NCBI RefSeq assembly: GCF_907163085.1
Contig: NZ_CAJQTX010000005.1
Span: 558,001-622,000, forward strand
Direction of reading: 5' to 3'
Length of the DNA stretch: 64,000 nucleotides
Source of the DNA: Candidatus Accumulibacter sp. ACC003
GTDB taxonomy: Bacteria > Pseudomonadota > Gammaproteobacteria > Burkholderiales > Rhodocyclaceae
The notes under the pieces were generated by a model. The model did not search any database. It saw only the letters and a list, made by a program, of their open reading frames with translations, and was not told the DNA's origin. The translations under genes and the position numbers were made by a program. Of the stretch, positions 41,469-50,302 are shown piece by piece; within the stretch, counting starts at the first letter, position 1; each line of letters opens with the position of its first letter.

Positions 41469-42275
41469 TCAGCGCCAGAACTTGCCGCAGAAACCGAGAA
41501 AACGGTAGGGCGTGGCGGGGACTCGCGGCGACGCCCCCGCTGCTTCCAGGGTCACGCCGAGGCGAGTCACCCCCGACAAGAGCTTCTCGGAGGGTGCAGC
41601 CAGTTCCAGGCGGACGCTCTGACCGCGCGGTAGAGCGCCCAGCGCTATCGGCGTGCCACCATCGGCGGGCAATCCCCAGAGATACAGGACGCTGCCGTCG
41701 GGAAAGTCCTCCGGCTGCAGGAGCTTGATGTCGGCGACGCGGCCCTGCCGCAGGCTGCTGACCAGCATGCCGGCGTGGCCCGCTTGATCGGCAAGGACGC
41801 CGACGTAGCTGGCGGGCAGTTGCGGCGCGTTCAGCGCCGCCGGCGACGATGGCGACGGCGAGCTTGCCGGCGGCGCGATCATGACGCCCAGCACGAGGCC
41901 GCTGGCGAGTCCGGCGAATGCCCAGCCGACGCCCCGCGCCAGACCCGTGCCCGCTCTGCTGTCCGCTCGGCTGCCCACTTCCTCGCGGGCACGCGCGCCA
42001 CCGAAAAACCTGCGCCAGTCGCTGCCGGGTGTCGGCGGCGCGGCTGCGAAACCCAGGCGCTGCTCGACGCGCGTCCACAGCGCATCGGACGGTGCCTGCG
42101 GCGGCAGCGCCAGCGCCAGGGGCGCATAGCGCGCCACCTGCTCGTCCACCCGCTCCTGCAAGGCAGAATCGTGCGCCATCAGACGCTCGAGTCGCGCACG
42201 CGCACGCCGGGTCAGCAAGCCCAGGGCGTAGGCCGTGGCCAGATGGCGCCGCAAGGCCGGGTTCTGGTAACGCAT
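41469..42275 (-). CDS. RskA-type anti-sigma factor
   Basis: A 268-residue protein: a cytoplasmic N-terminal segment RYQNPALRRHLATAYALGLLTRRARARLERLM typical of anti-sigma factors, one helix (GVGWAFAGLASGLVLGVMI) and a periplasmic RskA-like beta-domain (VADIKLLQPEDFPDGSVLYLWGLPADGGTPIALGAL). It should bind and inhibit the ECF sigma factor encoded two bases upstream. Last gene of the five-gene amyloid-like operon; its periplasmic domain may sense envelope or fibre assembly status. Confidence 0.88.
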   Translation of the reverse strand: MRYQNPALRRHLATAYALGLLTRRARARLERLMAHDSALQERVDEQVARYAPLALALPPQAPSDALWTRVEQRLGFAAAPPTPGSDWRRFFGGARAREEVGSRADSRAGTGLARGVGWAFAGLASGLVLGVMIAPPASSPSPSSPAALNAPQLPASYVGVLADQAGHAGMLVSSLRQGRVADIKLLQPEDFPDGSVLYLWGLPADGGTPIALGALPRGQSVRLELAAPSEKLLSGVTRLGVTLEAAGASPRVPATPYRFLGFCGKFWR

Positions 42276-42277
42276 GC

Positions 42278-42841
42278 TCAGTGCTCCATGCAGGTCTGCA
42301 AGCGCAGCACACTGCGCCGGATCCAGGCCTTGATCGTGCCCAGCGGCTGCGCCAGCCGCTCGGCCAGCTGACGATGGCTATGGCCGCCATAGTAGGCGAG
42401 CAGCAGCACCTGCCGCCGGTCCTCGTCAAGTTCGCCGAGGCAGTGTTTGAGACGCTCGTCCTCGCAGCGCTGCAGCAGTGCCTCTTCGGGCGTCAGGCCG
42501 TCACTCGGGGCGTCTTCAACGACGCTGGCGCCCTGCGCATCGCGACGCTCGAGCGGCAAATGGGTCGGCCGGGCACGGGCGATGTCGAGAGCCTTGTTGC
42601 GCACCAGCGTAGTCAGCCAGGCCAGTGCCGGAGCACGCTCGGGACGGTAGCGCCCGGCGTGATGCCAGAGCGCCAGATACGCCTCCTGCAGGGCGTCCTC
42701 GGCCAGCGAGCGGTCGCCAAGCAGGCGCAGGGCGATCGGAAACAAGCGCGCCGAACTGGCCTCGTACGCCGCCCGCAGAGCCTCACGGTCACCCAGCGCG
42801 ATGCGGCCGATCAAGCCCTCCAGGGTAAGTGCCTGGCTCAC
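42278..42841 (-). CDS. ECF-type RNA polymerase sigma factor
   Basis: A 187-residue sigma-70 family member with region 2 (SARLFPIALRLLGDRSLAEDALQEAYLALW) and region 4 (LLLAYYGGHSHRQLAERLAQPLGTIKAWIRRSVLRL). The GTG start overlaps the stop of the lipoprotein gene (GTGA), so its synthesis is coupled to that of the secretion-pore candidate. The cognate anti-sigma factor follows two bases later. It likely autoregulates this operon. Confidence 0.92.
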   Translation of the reverse strand: MSQALTLEGLIGRIALGDREALRAAYEASSARLFPIALRLLGDRSLAEDALQEAYLALWHHAGRYRPERAPALAWLTTLVRNKALDIARARPTHLPLERRDAQGASVVEDAPSDGLTPEEALLQRCEDERLKHCLGELDEDRRQVLLLAYYGGHSHRQLAERLAQPLGTIKAWIRRSVLRLQTCMEH

Positions 42842-44340
42842 CGACGGGCGGTCTTCTTCAGGCTGACGCTGGCCGTGGCCACCGTTTCGCCGGCTACGCC
42901 TTCGAGAATCTGGTGCACGTCGGCGAAGTCGCGGACCGCCTTGAGATCGTGGAAATCGCCCCAGCGCAAGGCCGCCGGAATGTCGTTGTAGATCTCGCGC
43001 GCGGTGGCGAAGCAGGCCACCGGCACGCTGTCGCTGTCGCCAGGCAGCAACTTGAAGCCCTGCCTGCCGGGCAAGAGCAGCGGCACGCCCGGATCGACCC
43101 GTGGATCGCTGACGAAGCGGTTCGGGAAAATCCGCTGCAACTTGCCTGCCGCCGTCTGCGCGTAGCAGTAGACGTAGGCCGGCGCGCTGGTCAGCACCTT
43201 GAACGCGAGGCCACCGTCCGGGCCGTCCGCCGCGGCGGATTGCAGCTCGATCCCGATGCGCGGCGCTGCGGCGGCGGGCGCTGTCGGAGCGCTCCGCGTG
43301 GCAGCGCCGAAAGGCTGCGCCGGGAAGGGGCCGGCCAGGAAGCGCGTGAAGAACGCCAGATCGACGTTCGGCGCGCCCCCCATGCCGACTGCGCTGCGGT
43401 AGGCGGCAACGGCCTGACGCAAGGCCGGCGTCACCGTGCCGTCGGCCGGTCCGTCGTAAAAGCCGCGATTGCGCAACTGCGCCTGGAAGTACGGCGTCAG
43501 CTCACCGGCGCGCTCCATGCCAACGAACCAGTCTTCGATCTCGTTGGCGACTTCCGGATTGTCGACGTCGGCGCCGACGCAACTCCAGTAGGGAAGCTTG
43601 AGCAGTCGCCCGAAAAGTTCGACCGACGACAGCTCGACCATGTTGCGCAGCGCCTGCGCGGTGCCGTCGCTACGCTGAAAAGAAGTGCTGAAGTTGATTC
43701 CCACCTTGTTGAAGGTCGCTTGCGAGTCGAGCGCGTCGCCCTCCTTGGTGATCGTCGTCAGGTTCTTCGACACCACCCCGGGAACCAGCGCCAGGCGATC
43801 GGTATCGGCCATCGCCACATCGAGCCCGAGGACGTTGAACTGACGGCTGGCCGAGGCGCCCAGCCCGAGCAGGTTGGCGAGCGAAACGCCGGAATCGGCC
43901 TGACGCTTGACGACGCCTTCGTCGAGTTGCGTGACCGAGCCGCGCAAGCTGAAACGCGGCACGACGGCAAAGGCGCTGCGCTTCTGCGCATTGGCGAGAA
44001 AAGCGACGGTGTTGTTGGCGTCCTTGCCGAAAGCGATCACCTCGATGGCCCGGCTTCGACGCGTTTGGTCGGAAAGCGCCGACATCATCATGTCGCGGGT
44101 GCCGGCGTTCACTTTCTTCGTCGAGTCGTCGAGGTCCTCGAGAAGCACGCTGACGTCACGCACACCGTAGCCGATGTACAGCTTGTCCATGCAGCGCAAT
44201 GCCTCCGAGAAGTTGGTGACATTGCGCTGCGGTACCGTATCCGGGGGCTTGACGGCGGTGCGCACATCCTGGCTTTTGGGCGGTAGCGGCGAGCATGCAG
44301 TGAGCACGGCAGCAAGCAGGCAGATCGATTTATGGGTCAT
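42838..44340 (-). CDS. CsgG-like outer-membrane lipoprotein with peptidoglycan-binding-like and DUF4384-like regions
   Basis: A 500-residue lipoprotein (CLLAAVLTACSPL, Cys16). Residues about 45-260 follow the CsgG curli-pore pattern: VLLEDLDDSTKKVNAGTRDM, a block with FSLRGSVTQLDEG, then LGLDVAMADTDRL and VVSKNLTTITKEG, ending ALRNMVELSSVELFGRLL. About residues 300-345 resemble a peptidoglycan-binding repeat (YFQAQLRNRGFYDGPADGTV). The C-terminal part (from about 370) reads as DUF4384, with APAYVYCYAQTAAGKLQRIFPN. Such a protein could form the secretion channel and attach it to the wall. The ATG at 44340 puts the lipobox at the N-terminus. Precise domain limits are by eye. Confidence 0.75.
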   Translation of the reverse strand: MTHKSICLLAAVLTACSPLPPKSQDVRTAVKPPDTVPQRNVTNFSEALRCMDKLYIGYGVRDVSVLLEDLDDSTKKVNAGTRDMMMSALSDQTRRSRAIEVIAFGKDANNTVAFLANAQKRSAFAVVPRFSLRGSVTQLDEGVVKRQADSGVSLANLLGLGASASRQFNVLGLDVAMADTDRLALVPGVVSKNLTTITKEGDALDSQATFNKVGINFSTSFQRSDGTAQALRNMVELSSVELFGRLLKLPYWSCVGADVDNPEVANEIEDWFVGMERAGELTPYFQAQLRNRGFYDGPADGTVTPALRQAVAAYRSAVGMGGAPNVDLAFFTRFLAGPFPAQPFGAATRSAPTAPAAAAPRIGIELQSAAADGPDGGLAFKVLTSAPAYVYCYAQTAAGKLQRIFPNRFVSDPRVDPGVPLLLPGRQGFKLLPGDSDSVPVACFATAREIYNDIPAALRWGDFHDLKAVRDFADVHQILEGVAGETVATASVSLKKTARR

Positions 44341-44362
44341 GGTCGTGGAATGGCCTGGGTTT

Positions 44363-44728
44363 TTAGCGACAGTTGTTGCCTGCCTGGATGATGTCACCGG
44401 TGATGATGACCGTGGTTTCGCGGCGCGCCGAGGTGCCGATTTTCTTGTCGTCCTCGAAGACATTGCCGACGGCAATCGTGCAGCCGTTGTCGAGTCGTGT
44501 CAGAGCCGCCGCGCTGCCGGCCCTGGCGCCGGCGCCAGGGCCGTCGCGGTCACCATCACCACGATCGAGCCGGTTACGGGCGCGCTCCGAAGCCTGCGCC
44601 GCCTGGTCGCTTTTCGAACGCGCGATGCGCGCATTGATGTCATCGGACAGTTCCGGCGTCCCGGCCAGGCTTGGCAGGACCGGCAGCGCCAGTCCGGCAG
44701 CGAACAACAAGGCGAAAAATTTCGGCAT
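44363..44728 (-). CDS. Small secreted protein sharing the amyloid repeat motif (nucleator candidate)
   Basis: A 121-residue protein: signal peptide (MPKFFALLFAAGLALPVLPSLAG), a charged Arg/Asp/Gly-rich middle (DRGDGDRDGPGAGARAG), and a C-terminal segment with CTIAVGNV, a spacer, and TVIITGDIIQAGNNC. This matches the strand pattern of the large repeat protein (I-x-V-G-x-V ... T-x-V-x-x-x-G-x-I-x-Q), once, bracketed by two Cys. Its position between the repeat protein and the CsgG-like gene recalls CsgB, the curli nucleator, but that role is inferred. Confidence 0.65.
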   Translation of the reverse strand: MPKFFALLFAAGLALPVLPSLAGTPELSDDINARIARSKSDQAAQASERARNRLDRGDGDRDGPGAGARAGSAAALTRLDNGCTIAVGNVFEDDKKIGTSARRETTVIITGDIIQAGNNCR

Positions 44729-44777
44729 GGCCTCTGACTCCCTTTTCTTTCCGGTTCATTGCTGTACGTTCGGGCGC

Positions 44778-46328
44778 TTACTGCGCACCTTCGACGCCGC
44801 CGACCAGCACGCGCTGGCTGCCACCGCTGCCCAGCCGGCTGCTCTGGTTGATCGCCCCGCTGACACGCACATCGGTGGCTATATTGCCGCCGCCCGCATT
44901 GCGCACGCTGCCGAGGTTGATGGTCTGCGAAGCGTTGGTCGTGCCGAGCGCGTCCTGCTGGATGCCGGCGTCGACGACGGCCCGGGTAGCAACCGTCGCC
45001 GCCGTATTCTCGACGCTGCCGATGGCCACCGTCTGCTCGCTGTTGATCGTGCTGCGCGCCGACTGATCGATCCTGCCGGTCACCACCGCATCGGTGCTCA
45101 CCGTTCCCGAAGTACGCTCGGCGCTGCCCACGGAAATCGTCTGCCGGGCGCCGCCCTGGGTATCGGCCAGCGACTGCGAGATGGCGTTGGTGGTGCTTGC
45201 ATTGGTGGTGACGCGACCGCTGCTGCCGACGACGCTGCCGATCAGCACACGCTGCTGGTTAGCGGCGGTGTTGCCGGTGCGCGAGCTGGCCGACTGCGAA
45301 ATCGCGCCCGATACCTGCGCCTTGGTCGTCGCGCTCTGCGGCGAGCCGCCGCTGACGGTGCCGATGGCGATGCTCTGATCCGCCTGGCTGTTCTGCGTCT
45401 GGGTCACCGTGTTGCTGACGGCGCCGCGCGTCGAAATATTGCCGCCCGCGTCGACACCGCTGACGGCGCCGACGGAAAGGTTCTGCCTGCCTGCCGCGCT
45501 CCCCTGCCGGGTCTGCGTGACCGCGCCGCCAATCAGCCCGTCGGTGTTCACGTTGCTGGCCTGGGTGGCGGTGATGCTGCCCGCATCGATGGTCTGCGCA
45601 TTCGCCAGATTGCCCGCGTTGCCACCACTTGACTGCTGGCTGACGCTAGCGCCGACGATCCGGCCGCTGCTCGCTGCCGAGCCGATCTGCGAGTTCTGCA
45701 CCGCTCCAGCACGAATCTCCTGACTCAGACCGGCGCTGCTCGAGTCATTGACCTGGCTCTGAGTGACGTTGCCCGAGACGACGCCACTGGTCGTGAGCGA
45801 CCCGACGCGCGAATCCGACAGGCTGCCGGCATCGATTTTTTGCGTCCGCTGCCCGAACGTGGCGCTCTGCGTCTGCACCACATTGGCCTTGACGGTGCCG
45901 GAAAGCGTCGCGTTGCCCGCTTGCACGTTCCCGGCCGTGGAGCCGACCCGGACTTCCTGCGCGTCGCTCGCCGTCGAGCGCCCGGAAACGCCGCTCTTGC
46001 TCTGCACCAGGCTGCCGGCCAGCGTTCCGTCGGCACTCACCGTTCCCGTCGTCGTGCCGCTGACGCCGCCCACCGAGACATCCTGCCGGCCGCCCGCACT
46101 GTCACTGGCCTGATCAACGCTGCCGACCAGCGAGCCACGAGTGGTCAGATCATTGGCGCCGACAGATGTCGGCGGCTGCCCGCCAAGCGTATCGGCCGGC
46201 GCCGCGGACTTCTCGGCCGCCACCAGGGTATTGGAAGTGCCGTCCTTGACCGGCGCGATCTGCGCCAGCAAGGGGCTCGACGCGAGACTCAAGACGGCAG
46301 CCAGAATCTTCAAGCGGACTGGTTTCAT
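44778..46328 (-). CDS. Secreted repeat protein, curli-like amyloid or beta-solenoid candidate
   Basis: A 516-residue exported protein: signal peptide ending SSPLLAQ, a short linker, then about twelve imperfect repeats of 36-43 residues plus a partial one. Each repeat has two strands: Q-x-I-x-V/I-G-S-V and V-x-T-x-x-x-V-x-G-x-I-x-Q; examples are QTISVGSAERTSGTVST and QTVAIGSVENTAATVAT. The composition is very rich in Ser, Gly, Thr, Gln and Asn with no Cys and few Lys, as in curlin subunits. Spacing of Q and G at strand ends suits a strand-loop-strand amyloid ladder. ATG 46328 has AGGA eight bases upstream; ATG 46334 overlaps that site. First gene of the operon. Confidence 0.8.
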   Translation of the reverse strand: MKPVRLKILAAVLSLASSPLLAQIAPVKDGTSNTLVAAEKSAAPADTLGGQPPTSVGANDLTTRGSLVGSVDQASDSAGGRQDVSVGGVSGTTTGTVSADGTLAGSLVQSKSGVSGRSTASDAQEVRVGSTAGNVQAGNATLSGTVKANVVQTQSATFGQRTQKIDAGSLSDSRVGSLTTSGVVSGNVTQSQVNDSSSAGLSQEIRAGAVQNSQIGSAASSGRIVGASVSQQSSGGNAGNLANAQTIDAGSITATQASNVNTDGLIGGAVTQTRQGSAAGRQNLSVGAVSGVDAGGNISTRGAVSNTVTQTQNSQADQSIAIGTVSGGSPQSATTKAQVSGAISQSASSRTGNTAANQQRVLIGSVVGSSGRVTTNASTTNAISQSLADTQGGARQTISVGSAERTSGTVSTDAVVTGRIDQSARSTINSEQTVAIGSVENTAATVATRAVVDAGIQQDALGTTNASQTINLGSVRNAGGGNIATDVRVSGAINQSSRLGSGGSQRVLVGGVEGAQ

Positions 46329-47075
46329 GGTCATCTTCCTATCGGTTGAGGGTTACCAGAGCACAAGACTTTGCGCCGCTTGTAGTGGTTTCGTATTCAA
46401 TCGCGGTTTGGATGCAGTCAGCGTGAAAATATTCTCGTGCACGCATGCATGGCTGCTGCGCTCTCGATACCTCGTGGGCAAGTCGAATATTCGAGGCGGC
46501 TACTGCTGGCCGCGCGGCTGGAAAAGGCCGCGACCCTCGCCGGCCGGCCACGCCAGTCAAAAAAGGCTCATCCGCCGCGTAAAAGCAGCGCTCGAAGCGT
46601 GGGTCTTCTGCGCTGCAGATAGTAGCCGCAACGCGCCCTACGGCATACATCAGGCGCATGTATTCTGCGGCCCTGTGCGGAACTATCAGCTCACCCCTCG
46701 ACGCTCACGAAACCTGACCCTTTTTCGCTCACTAGAACGGATCCAGGAGATGCGCAGGAGTCGGCCATCTGCGCGATGCCGGCTATGATCGAATGAGGTT
46801 TTGTGGCGGCGCGGCGGCGCGGCGACACGCTCCGTCCGCCGGGGATTTTTTGACGGCAAATGGATGCGCTTGACGCGTGCGGCAGGAAGGCCTCGGAGCT
46901 GGGTCAAGGGCAGGCTGCGGTTTTTTGCAGCCTGGCGAAGCCTCCCTTGACGCAGCGGAGGGGCGCGAGACTGAGGGGTGGCAGTAAGCGCGGCAGTATC
47001 GGGCTTACTGCCCTGGAGACGGGTGTTTGCGTGGATCGAATTCGCGCCGATCGCCGTTTCAGCTACTGATTATGG
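46329..47075. other. Long intergenic region upstream of the amyloid-like operon
   Basis: About 750 bp without a convincing gene. Short AT-rich patches occur near 46430 and 46490 (GAATATTC). The promoter of the operon should lie just right of 46330, but no clear -35/-10 pair is visible, as expected if an ECF sigma factor reads it. A frame at 46339-46659 on the minus strand has no ribosome site and unnatural composition. The right part may be degraded flank of the IS element. Confidence 0.5.
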
Positions 47076-47159: not shown

Positions 47160-47993
47160 TCAGGATGCCGCGGACTCGTTCGTTGGGGCGATGCTCCTCG
47201 ACGCCGAGCGTTTAGCCGCCGCTACCGAGGCCGCCGCCGTGATCGTCGGGGCGCTTCCTGGCTCGCTGCGCAGAGAAGGTCCGCTCAAGCGCAGGATGAT
47301 GCAGCGGTGCTGCAGTCGGTCGAGCAGCGCATCGACGAGCGGCTTCCTCTGAAACAGCTCGTACCAGTCGGGCAGATCGAGATTCGTCGTGATCAGCGTT
47401 GACAGCCCCAGGCTATAGCGCTGATCCATCAGGCGGAAGAAGGCGTTGACCTGTTCCGGTTTCAGATTGAGGTAGCCCAGCTCATCGATGGCGATCAGTG
47501 GCATGCGGCACAACTGGTTGAGCAGCGCCACCGTCGAACGATCGGCAAGCGAGGCATACAAAGCGTCGAGCAAAGCCTGCGCGGTGTAGAAGCGCGCGCG
47601 ATAACCGTTCAGACACGCCTCGCGAAGCAATCCCACCGCGATCCCGGACTTGCCGGTTCCCGGCGGACCGATCAACAACACGTTCTCGCCCCGGCGCAGG
47701 AATTCCAGTCCGGCCAGCGTCATCACCTGCGTCTTGTTCACGCTCGGCTGCCGCGCAAAAGGAAACGACTGCAAGGTCCACGGCCAAGGCAAATGCGCCT
47801 GACTGAGACGATAAGCCAGACTCTTCTCACGTCGGGCCGCGTCTTCCGCGCCGAGTAGACGGAAGAGCACCTCCGGAACCGGCGTCCCCTGGCGCTCGGC
47901 CAAATCGAGCTCCTCATCGAGCACCGCCGCCATCCCCGACCAGCGCATCTGCCCAAGCAAAGCCTTCAGACGCTCACGCATCATCACCTCCAT
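47160..47993 (-). CDS. istB: IS21-family transposition helper ATPase IstB
   Basis: A 277-residue AAA+ ATPase. Walker A is LLIGPPGTGKSGIA, Walker B LIAIDELGYLNL, and sensor I STLITTNLDLPDW. IstB directs the IstA transposase to its target. It overlaps istA by 20 bases. The C-terminus (from about residue 245) is an Ala/Ser-rich tail. GGAGG upstream favours the ATG at 47984 or 47981 over the outermost ATG at 47993. Appears intact. Confidence 0.93.
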   Translation of the reverse strand: MEVMMRERLKALLGQMRWSGMAAVLDEELDLAERQGTPVPEVLFRLLGAEDAARREKSLAYRLSQAHLPWPWTLQSFPFARQPSVNKTQVMTLAGLEFLRRGENVLLIGPPGTGKSGIAVGLLREACLNGYRARFYTAQALLDALYASLADRSTVALLNQLCRMPLIAIDELGYLNLKPEQVNAFFRLMDQRYSLGLSTLITTNLDLPDWYELFQRKPLVDALLDRLQHRCIILRLSGPSLRSEPGSAPTITAAASVAAAKRSASRSIAPTNESAAS

Positions 47994-49401
47994 CGTCGAG
48001 ATTGAAGAACTCCCCCGCCACCTGCTGCAGGATCATGTGCTCCAGGCGACCCATGTCGAACAGACCGAACTGCAGCGCCTGGGCCACGGCCGCCAGCAAA
48101 GGCTCCTGCGGATAGGTCCGCTTGAAGTCCAGCAAGCGGCGCAGCGGTCGCACCCCCCGGCCATGCGCCTGCCGGACCAGCGCGGCGACATACGCATCGA
48201 GCAGCGGGTCGTGCCCCTGCAACAATGTCGCCTCGCGCGGCGGCGTGCGCGGCCGCGGCTGCGGGGTCGGGTGATGCCCGGGGAGCTTCTGCTTCGTATC
48301 GCGCACGCCAAGCAGGCGGGCATGCACGGCGAGCAGTTGCTCACCCCGGCAGACCCTGACCTCGGTGGCATACAGATAGACGCTCAGCGCCTTGCCCACC
48401 CAGCGTTCGGGTACCGAATAGCGATTCGTCTCAAGCGACACGAAACCCTGCAGATCGACCACCCGCTCGACGACCTGATAGACCGGCGGCAGCACCGCCG
48501 GCAGCGGCTGCAGGCAAGGCCTCTCGACGGCGTAGGCGGCGCTTGGCGCCACCCCCAGAGCGCGCTTCGGTTTGGCATTGGCGACGTTCTCGCACCAGGC
48601 CAGCACCTGCGCGTTCAGGTCGGCGAAATCGCGAAACGTCCGGCCGGCCAGGAAATTGCCTTCGATCCAGGAAAAAGGTCTTTCAATCCTCCCCTTGCGA
48701 TCGGGTTTGTTCACCGCGTGCGCGCGGAAAGCGAAGCCCAGCGTACGTGCCAGGGCGACCATCTCGGGCGCAAACACGGCCTCGTCGCCGGCCCCGGCGA
48801 CGACGATCACGCTGGTATTGTCGATGACGCAGGTCGGGCAGCTGCCGGCCATGAAACGGACGGCTTCGAGCAGGAACTGCTTGGCTTCGAAACGCGTGAA
48901 ACGCGGAAAGTACTGAACGAAGAGCCGCCGCGAATACGCCAGGATCAGTGAGGCGCATTGCGCCGTCAGCGGCTTGCCGGCCAGGATCACGCGATGTGGC
49001 GAGGTATCGTGTTGCATCTCCTGACCAGGGGCGAAGTAATATTCGCCGGCGCGTTTCGGCGGCGTGCGCAGATCGGCATCGCGGATCCAGCGGGTCAGCG
49101 TGCTGTAGCCCGGACGAAGGTCCAGCTCCGCGGCCAGCATCTCCTGGATCCGCACCCCATTGCCGCGCGCGCGCTCGAAGGCCGAGACCAGCCAAAGCCG
49201 AACCGGCGCTGGGCACGCGACAGGCGCCGGGCACGCGGCTGGCCGAGCGCCCTCTGCGGTATCGGGCGGGGAAGCCGCCGGATACCGCAGGATACGGCGA
49301 ACGGTGTTACGCGAGAGCTTCAAGAGCCGGCTGATCTCGCGCAGCGCCAGACCTTGCTGATGCAATGTCAGCACGGCTTGATGAATTTCGGGCGATTTCA
49401 T
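47974..49401 (-). CDS. istA: IS21-family transposase IstA
   Basis: A 475-residue transposase. An N-terminal helix-turn-helix (GLALREISRLLKLSRNTVRRILRY) is followed by a DDE integrase core: the first Asp in MQHDTSPHRV, the second in TCVIDNTSVIV and the Glu in KPDRKGRIERPFSWIEGNF. A Mu-type C-terminal beta domain follows (FVSLETNRYSVPERWVGK). GAGGAAGG precedes the ATG. Its start lies 95 bases inside the ParB-like gene, so the two are transcribed together. Appears intact. Confidence 0.95.
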   Translation of the reverse strand: MKSPEIHQAVLTLHQQGLALREISRLLKLSRNTVRRILRYPAASPPDTAEGARPAACPAPVACPAPVRLWLVSAFERARGNGVRIQEMLAAELDLRPGYSTLTRWIRDADLRTPPKRAGEYYFAPGQEMQHDTSPHRVILAGKPLTAQCASLILAYSRRLFVQYFPRFTRFEAKQFLLEAVRFMAGSCPTCVIDNTSVIVVAGAGDEAVFAPEMVALARTLGFAFRAHAVNKPDRKGRIERPFSWIEGNFLAGRTFRDFADLNAQVLAWCENVANAKPKRALGVAPSAAYAVERPCLQPLPAVLPPVYQVVERVVDLQGFVSLETNRYSVPERWVGKALSVYLYATEVRVCRGEQLLAVHARLLGVRDTKQKLPGHHPTPQPRPRTPPREATLLQGHDPLLDAYVAALVRQAHGRGVRPLRRLLDFKRTYPQEPLLAAVAQALQFGLFDMGRLEHMILQQVAGEFFNLDDGGDDA

Positions 49402-50302
49402 CGGGGCATACCTTCCTCAGGTGGCACTGAAGAGACGCCAGCGCCAATTGCAAAGCGCCGACCGCGGTGGTGACGGCGGGCGGCAGCTCCGCTGGCGAGG
49501 GCGCCAGGGCGAACAACCGCCGAGCCAGACGGGCGCCCACCGCGTCGAGAATGCGGATGTCGGCCAGGACTTCGCCTTCCGGACCCTCGCGCAGGCTCTC
49601 GGCGCTCTTCTCGTCGGCTTTGGCGGTCAGCGAATTGAGCAACAGCTGTGGGGCCTCGACCATCCGCTCGCGCACCGTCCGGGAAGCGCCTTGATACTGC
49701 GCGAACCAGGTCGCCAGCTGGCGGGTCGTCAGCGGCGTCGTGTGCAAACTCTCCAGTAGCTGTTCGGCGTGGGCGCTGTTGGCGCGCGCCAACGGGCCGA
49801 GAATCCGCACCGCCGCCCAGGTCGAGACCTTTCCCTGGCGTACCGCCGTCAACACCGCATCCGAGAGGACCGTCACGAGTTGCAGGCGGCGACTGACCCA
49901 GCTCACGTCGCGGCCGCAGCGGCGGGCGATTTCATGCTGGCTCAGGGGGCCGCTGGCGATCAGTTCGCGCAGCAGCAGCGCTTCTTCGATCGGCGCAAAC
50001 GCGCGGCTGCGGGTTCGTGCCAACACGCCCAGCAGGCCTTGCACCGGATCGCCGTCCCAGCATTCGACCTCGGCCGTATCCCGGCCGAGTTGCCGCAACG
50101 CGGCGACGCGTCGATAGCCGTCGAGCAGGATCGCCGAGTTGCCCTCGCCGGCGACCGCGATGCACGGGACGAGCTGGCCATTGACCGCGATCGATTGGGC
50201 CAGACGCGTGATCGCCGCCGTATCCAGCACGCGAAGATCGGCGTAGCGCAACTCCAGGCGGTGCAAATCCAGAGTCTGAGCCGTAGCGGCCGTGTGATCC
50301 AT
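49307..50302 (-). CDS. ParB/Spo0J-like protein of the IS21 element
   Basis: A 331-residue protein with the ParB N-terminal nuclease-like fold: LELRYADLRVLDTAAITRLAQSIAVNGQLVPCIAV, SAILLDGYRRVAALRQLG and, as the box II equivalent, TRSRAFAPIEEALLLREL; then a helix-turn-helix (LSQHEIARRCGRDVSWVSRRLQL). No ParA partner is nearby and parS partition seems unlikely; the protein may bind the element ends or regulate transposition. GGAGG precedes ATG 50302. Overlap with istA supports its being part of the element. Confidence 0.85.
   Translation of the reverse strand: MDHTAATAQTLDLHRLELRYADLRVLDTAAITRLAQSIAVNGQLVPCIAVAGEGNSAILLDGYRRVAALRQLGRDTAEVECWDGDPVQGLLGVLARTRSRAFAPIEEALLLRELIASGPLSQHEIARRCGRDVSWVSRRLQLVTVLSDAVLTAVRQGKVSTWAAVRILGPLARANSAHAEQLLESLHTTPLTTRQLATWFAQYQGASRTVRERMVEAPQLLLNSLTAKADEKSAESLREGPEGEVLADIRILDAVGARLARRLFALAPSPAELPPAVTTAVGALQLALASLQCHLRKVCPDEIARNSSSRADIASARSGAARDQPALEALA

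Follow-up and report, generated by a model that had tools for sequence, protein, structure and literature searches.

Curli and the HfaABD holdfast anchor of Caulobacter are the described systems closest to the locus presented here. The curli minimal repeat is defined as X6QXGX2NX10 in the excerpted text of PMC3521004, and according to the available part of PMC6707917, in which the word sigma is absent, the CsgG-like HfaB is required for HfaA and HfaD at the surface, and HfaA forms sodium dodecyl sulfate (SDS)-resistant multimers. A five-gene operon within the 64,000-nucleotide stretch of Candidatus Accumulibacter sp. ACC003 DNA analysed here (the window) looks like a distinct relative of both systems, and we favour, with moderate confidence, the reading that it was acquired and serves to build a surface fibre. 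The locus shares with curli a CsgG fold, as seen in a predicted model, and a secreted repeat subunit with a smaller partner, whereas it differs from curli in its wall-binding pore and in the extracytoplasmic function (ECF) sigma/RskA pair within the operon. With HfaABD it shares a CsgG-like lipoprotein and small and large repetitive secreted partners, but the window lipoprotein adds peptidoglycan-binding and DUF4384 parts.

Five minus-strand open reading frames (ORFs), running from 46334 to 41469, form one tight unit, and all five lie where the initial annotation, made from the DNA sequence alone, had placed a closely spaced leftward cluster. The repeat and small genes are 49 nt apart, the small and lipoprotein genes 22 nt (from the ATG at 44340), and the sigma and anti-sigma genes 2 nt; the proposed GTGA overlap between the ECF sigma start and the lipoprotein end is borne out in the ORF coordinates. 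The repeat gene has two in-frame ATGs, at 46328 and 46334, and for the lipoprotein the ATG at 44340 is preferred, with a lipobox LTAC seen by eye near the N terminus. The features are as follows.

46389..46416, minus strand: promoter-like site TGCATCC-N16-CGAAA lying ahead of the repeat gene (suggestive only)
44778..46328, minus strand: secreted repeat protein, 516 aa (518 aa from the ATG at 46334), with a signal peptide and twelve two-strand units
44363..44728, minus strand: small secreted protein, 121 aa, from the ORF list and a family hidden Markov model (HMM)
42838..44340, minus strand: outer-membrane-type lipoprotein, 500 aa, lipobox LTAC, with CsgG/HfaB-type, peptidoglycan-binding and DUF4384 parts
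43552..44220, minus strand: CsgG/HfaB-type domain, lipoprotein residues about 41-263
43324..43530, minus strand: peptidoglycan-binding-like domain, lipoprotein residues 271-339
43048..43209, minus strand: DUF4384 region, lipoprotein residues 378-431 (E 1.1e-9 to 1.2e-9)
42278..42841, minus strand: ECF sigma factor, 187 aa, with C134/C184, from Pfam and a comparison with the SigK cysteines
41469..42275, minus strand: RskA-type anti-sigma factor, 268 aa, with an RskA_C domain, from Pfam

On the basis of profile comparison and the predicted model, the pore domain of the lipoprotein is assigned to the CsgG/HfaB family. In profile-profile comparisons, the domain matches HfaB at 97.7%, its best match, and CsgG at 92.4%, with five controls at <=0.3%, and an ALxCM-like motif is common to the domain and HfaB in the alignment; the part after the pore domain has no match to HfaB in the same comparison. 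In the predicted model, which is that of a monomer (mean predicted local distance difference test score, pLDDT, 70.6), the N-terminal domain matches the CsgG fold, with PelC as the next fold match, and the wall-binding fold of the added domain is matched as well. The Pfam CsgG model (PF03783) has no match in the window lipoprotein and matches 4 of 14 members of the A1 lipoprotein alignment at E <=1 (best 0.0018), and the HfaB equivalog NF037935 gives 18.6 bits with the window lipoprotein, under its 300-bit cut-off, and matches 11 of the 14 members at E <=1 (best 5e-7). When the A1 sequence profile is compared with the PDB, the matches are mostly wall-binding domains and do not include CsgG, and the pore region weakly matches an outer-membrane lipoprotein carrier protein (E 0.0075). 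The claim that the first half of the lipoprotein follows CsgG, together with the profile comparison proposed as its check, therefore holds by fold and profile-profile comparison but not by Pfam, and the domain is nearer to HfaB than to CsgG. The peptidoglycan-binding-like and DUF4384 parts, also anticipated, are found by Pfam, the A1 profile and the model fold, with PG_binding_1 at 9.7e-4 and 19.7 bits, under the 23-bit cut-off. Pfam additionally names RskA_C (9.3e-12) and sigma regions 2 and 4 (Sigma70_r2, 4.8e-15) and gives nothing credible for the repeat protein or the small protein. The lipoprotein, modelled as a monomer, probably forms an outer-membrane ring. A separate CsgG-family protein is encoded elsewhere in the same genome (G000:C1:253534-254004; PF03783, 31.7 bits).

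The gene set recurs well beyond the window. Loci were picked by the lipoprotein, not by neighbouring genes: among 300 genomes of the order, including this one, 15 encode a lipoprotein relative, and a scan of GTDB contigs with the A1 profile contributed the best 80 of 105 relatives. Together with the window and 13 loci of the order, these 80 give 94 loci, or 88 distinct loci after the merging of 6 duplicates; the weak or partial matches L037, L038, L040 and L041 were excluded ahead of the locus counts. Repeat and small genes occur together with the lipoprotein gene in 57 of the 88 loci, which is part of the recurrence that the suggested co-occurrence survey, sigma pair included, was to look for. 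The small-protein family HMM, built from 38 members of the same loci, finds 73 ORFs among 6149, one each in 73 of the 94 loci. Counted over the 88 distinct loci, 69 carry the small protein, in 50 of these directly upstream on the same strand; 69 is an underestimate, as at least one likely member (L098 12414-12722) escapes the HMM. In 60 of the 88 loci, a Gln/Asn-rich protein with a periodic sequence is encoded within 6.5 kb on either strand; the window repeat protein is not among them because its unit lengths vary and the test uses a single lag. Neither gene is found in 16 loci, including L043, which starts at a contig end. Near the lipoprotein, OmpA-like proteins are seen in 53 of the 88 loci, small RCWQ-motif proteins in 22, GIN-like proteins in 19 and caspase-like or Sel1-like proteins in 34, as labelled by blastp with one or two seeds each and no family search. 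Copies from Accumulibacter and Gallionella (L103 11399-11707 and 11685-11996; L098 12414-12722 and 13349-14057) come with solenoid-like proteins of only about 100 aa, together with a two-Cys protein and one that is OmpA-like, so some Accumulibacter species hold their own diverged version. Among the matches listed, the titles and abstract openings of open-licence literature do not describe the gene set.

The repeat protein contains twelve motif ends of the form Q-x-[VIL]-x-[VIA]-G-[SGA]-[VATIL], between which lie eleven full units of 36-42 aa with the pattern V-x-T-x3-V-x-G-x-I-x-Q-S ... Q-x-V-x-I-G-S-V. Alignment of its first half with its second yields a score of 215, versus 99 +/- 12 (maximum 136) for 300 shuffles, and a unit HMM seeded partly with the protein's own units finds 12 units, in agreement with the roughly twelve two-strand repeats first described. 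Outside its seeds, the window-type unit HMM matches at E <=0.01 ORFs of L080 (two), L087, L091, L055 and L046, five of which were already flagged as repeat proteins; the unflagged L087 ORF lies directly upstream of its small gene. No shuffled copies and no CsgA ORFs are matched. The window repeat protein is not matched by the HMM of a second unit type, QSGLLN, and the two types are linked by the window-type HMM and by comparison of the unit profiles, which match each other (81%, E 1.2e-5). The units recur across loci but differ in number and length. Two regular 36-residue solenoid-like proteins adjoin the lipoprotein in L084 (6623-7573 and 5115-5729), from a Thiodiazotropha symbiont; Thiodiazotropha are clam symbionts. 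In the small protein, the C-terminal half reads C-x-[IV]-x-[VI]-GN ... V-x-I-x-G-D-I-I ... C, and the two Cys are kept in all 38 aligned family sequences, as judged by eye. The description of one strand motif copy between two Cys is nearly right: two strand-like pieces resemble, by eye, the halves of a repeat unit with their order swapped.

Sigma and anti-sigma partners also recur, but not as part of the core set. An ECF gene is present in the stretch examined in 27 of the 88 loci, and one of two kinds of sigma/anti-sigma pair in 21, so the dedicated pair of the initial annotation stands as a recurring partner only. The RskA-type pair occurs in 9 loci, the window included, directly downstream of the lipoprotein in 8 of the 9 and upstream of the repeat genes in L045; in L068 and L089 the lipoprotein and pair ORF calls overlap because the starts are drawn long. 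Another ECF factor with a different anti-sigma family occurs in 12 loci, all 12 with repeat and small genes. The two kinds of pair differ in both sigma and anti-sigma proteins, from which we infer at least two recruitments; the tree of the lipoprotein N-terminal domain (79 rows) has one change per kind of pair, with support 100/99, in a count that leaves aside the 58 rows in neither pair group, some of which lie inside the clades concerned. C134 and C184 of the window sigma factor align with SigK cysteines 133 and 183, which the available text of PMC7509140 gives as conserved in 94% of ECF18, 56% of ECF19 and <2% of other factors. Both marks of SigK/RskA systems (ECF18/19) in that text, the RskA_C partner and the sigma Cys pair, are thus present, whereas the window pair differs in belonging to a betaproteobacterium and in sharing its operon with a CsgG/HfaB-type lipoprotein. 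Sigma region 2 is matched 12 times in the genome as a whole. In L031 (10066-10785) and L056 (3774-4496), where no repeat or small gene is found, a Cys-rich secreted protein of ~240 aa lies directly upstream and may be an alternative substrate or a sensor.

Among 27 other Accumulibacter genomes, some incomplete, a lipoprotein match is found in 10, with 30-33% in the longer alignments and as much as 41% in short segments. The window lipoprotein pairs instead with that of Aquabacterium terrae (L042; 60% among the best 80 of 105 relatives, tree support 97/93), and lateral acquisition of the operon would be the simplest reading. In plasmid searches, the lipoprotein is matched by just two records, both from Azospirillum and at about 29%. 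Upstream of the operon, the window holds an IS21-type insertion sequence (IS) element (47160-49401), and IstA/IstB genes of this type with a ParB/KorB-like gene extend over 47160-50302; the IS element has no match in the plasmid searches.

In the surface-fibre reading, the repeat protein, as major subunit, and the two-Cys protein, as putative nucleator or cap, would cross to the periplasm via Sec and leave through the outer-membrane ring of the lipoprotein, whose peptidoglycan-binding domain would anchor the pore to the wall. Outside the cell, the repeats would stack into a strand-turn-strand solenoid, which is probably amyloid-like. The RskA-type anti-sigma factor would retain the sigma factor, to be freed by an envelope or redox signal; from the 46416 site, the freed factor may then drive transcription of the entire operon, which includes its own gene.

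Several observations weigh against this reading. The CsgG-like domain of the model includes residues with pLDDT <50 (142-165 and 201-205), and the periodicity test, which 1 of 87 such proteins passes after shuffling, has shuffled controls only and no unrelated loci. In the tests made, the repeats are not recognised as curlin, contrary to the first suggestion of curli likeness: PF07012 matches neither the window repeat protein nor ten proteins of relatives, and in the genome gives a single sub-cut-off match elsewhere (E 0.44), while the minimal repeat occurs 0 times in the window repeat protein, with Q.G..N matching 5 times in E. coli CsgA. Window-type and QSGLLN-type units show no match to CsgA/CsgB (0.3% and 1.2% against E. 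coli units, of which only 4 were used). HfaA likeness of the small protein is not supported either, as its family compared with 7 HfaA-like proteins gives 1.4% and four controls give 0.3-1.5%, and CsgF has no match in the genome. Because HfaA, curlin repeats and CsgF are thus not recognised, the system is called neither curli nor Hfa, and its pore is filed in the CsgG/HfaB family. For the regulatory part, no repeat or small gene is found in 7 of the 9 RskA-type loci (L031, L056, L058, L068, L072, L073 and L089), so the pair may serve the lipoprotein and not the fibre, and in L042, the closest relative, no sigma pair is labelled in the vicinity and the promoter pattern is absent. This pattern, TGC[AC]TCC-N16/17-CGTAA ahead of the first repeat gene of both L044 and L045 and TGCATCC-N16-CGAAA ending 54 nt before the ATG at 46334 in the window, was derived from these three loci, which are therefore not independent tests. 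Over the 2.6 million strand-bases of the loci, the pooled pattern has 5 matches, which include these three sites, versus a chance expectation of 0.17 per 64-kb window or about 3 overall, so only the placement stands out; in the 5.39-Mb genome, TGCATCC-N15-17-CGWAA has 2 matches versus 1 for the reversed pattern. A printed SigK promoter consensus was sought in the literature and not found, which leaves the comparison of loci as the basis of the promoter reading, and the 46416 site is suggestive only as the operon promoter. Overall, the observation in the initial annotation is confirmed, and its interpretation is supported in part only.

The foremost alternative, which we consider rather unlikely, is a polysaccharide anchor like HfaABD, in which the pore would secrete repeat and small proteins that hold exopolysaccharide and do not form free fibres. 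The closeness of the pore domain to HfaB, including the ALxCM-like motif, is consistent with it, as are the fold match to PelC, an exopolysaccharide lipoprotein, and the common plan of a CsgG-like pore, a small CsgA-like HfaA and a large HfaD (PMC6707917, in the part available). However, the small protein is not recognisable as HfaA, the window-type unit HMM gives no match to an HfaD ORF at E 0.01, in a test that is weak where repeats have diverged, and no polysaccharide synthesis gene is present in the eight flanking genes scanned, holdfast export genes not having been searched genome-wide. A secreted non-amyloid adhesin or coat of ordinary beta-solenoid monomers at the surface is improbable: the variation in number and length of the recurring repeats agrees with it, and a soluble solenoid and a polymer fit the computed data alike, but CsgG-type pores are known from polymerising or multimerising substrates (curli; HfaA multimers in the excerpt of PMC6707917). 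A main role of the lipoprotein in envelope sensing for the sigma/anti-sigma pair, with the repeat genes as passengers, is very improbable: the lipoprotein-ECF-RskA arrangement kept in the seven loci where no repeat or small gene is found speaks for it, but the 57 loci that combine repeat, small and lipoprotein genes mostly lack the RskA-type pair.

If the operon builds a surface fibre, it may, as we tentatively suggest, represent a third CsgG-family fibre-export branch, next to those of curli and the holdfast anchor, with members in Beta-, Gamma- and Alphaproteobacteria, in deltaproteobacterial-type bacteria and in one myxococcal metagenome-assembled genome. In such a branch, a wall-anchored pore would export long solenoid fibres started by a disulfide-locked single rung, the two-Cys protein, under dedicated ECF control recruited independently at least twice. 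There are reports of amyloid adhesins from the flocs and granules of wastewater, and this branch, if real, could account for the amyloid-like matrix of floc- and granule-forming betaproteobacteria. In two 2025 Accumulibacter enrichment studies, the available text assigns curli to Flavobacterium (PMC12019908) and to Kaistella (PMC12016536). The operon is a concrete fibre candidate inside an Accumulibacter genome, and its gene set can be searched for elsewhere. Additionally, the association of a CsgG-type pore that has its own wall-binding domain with a cognate stress-type sigma factor makes fibre production and envelope signalling testable jointly.

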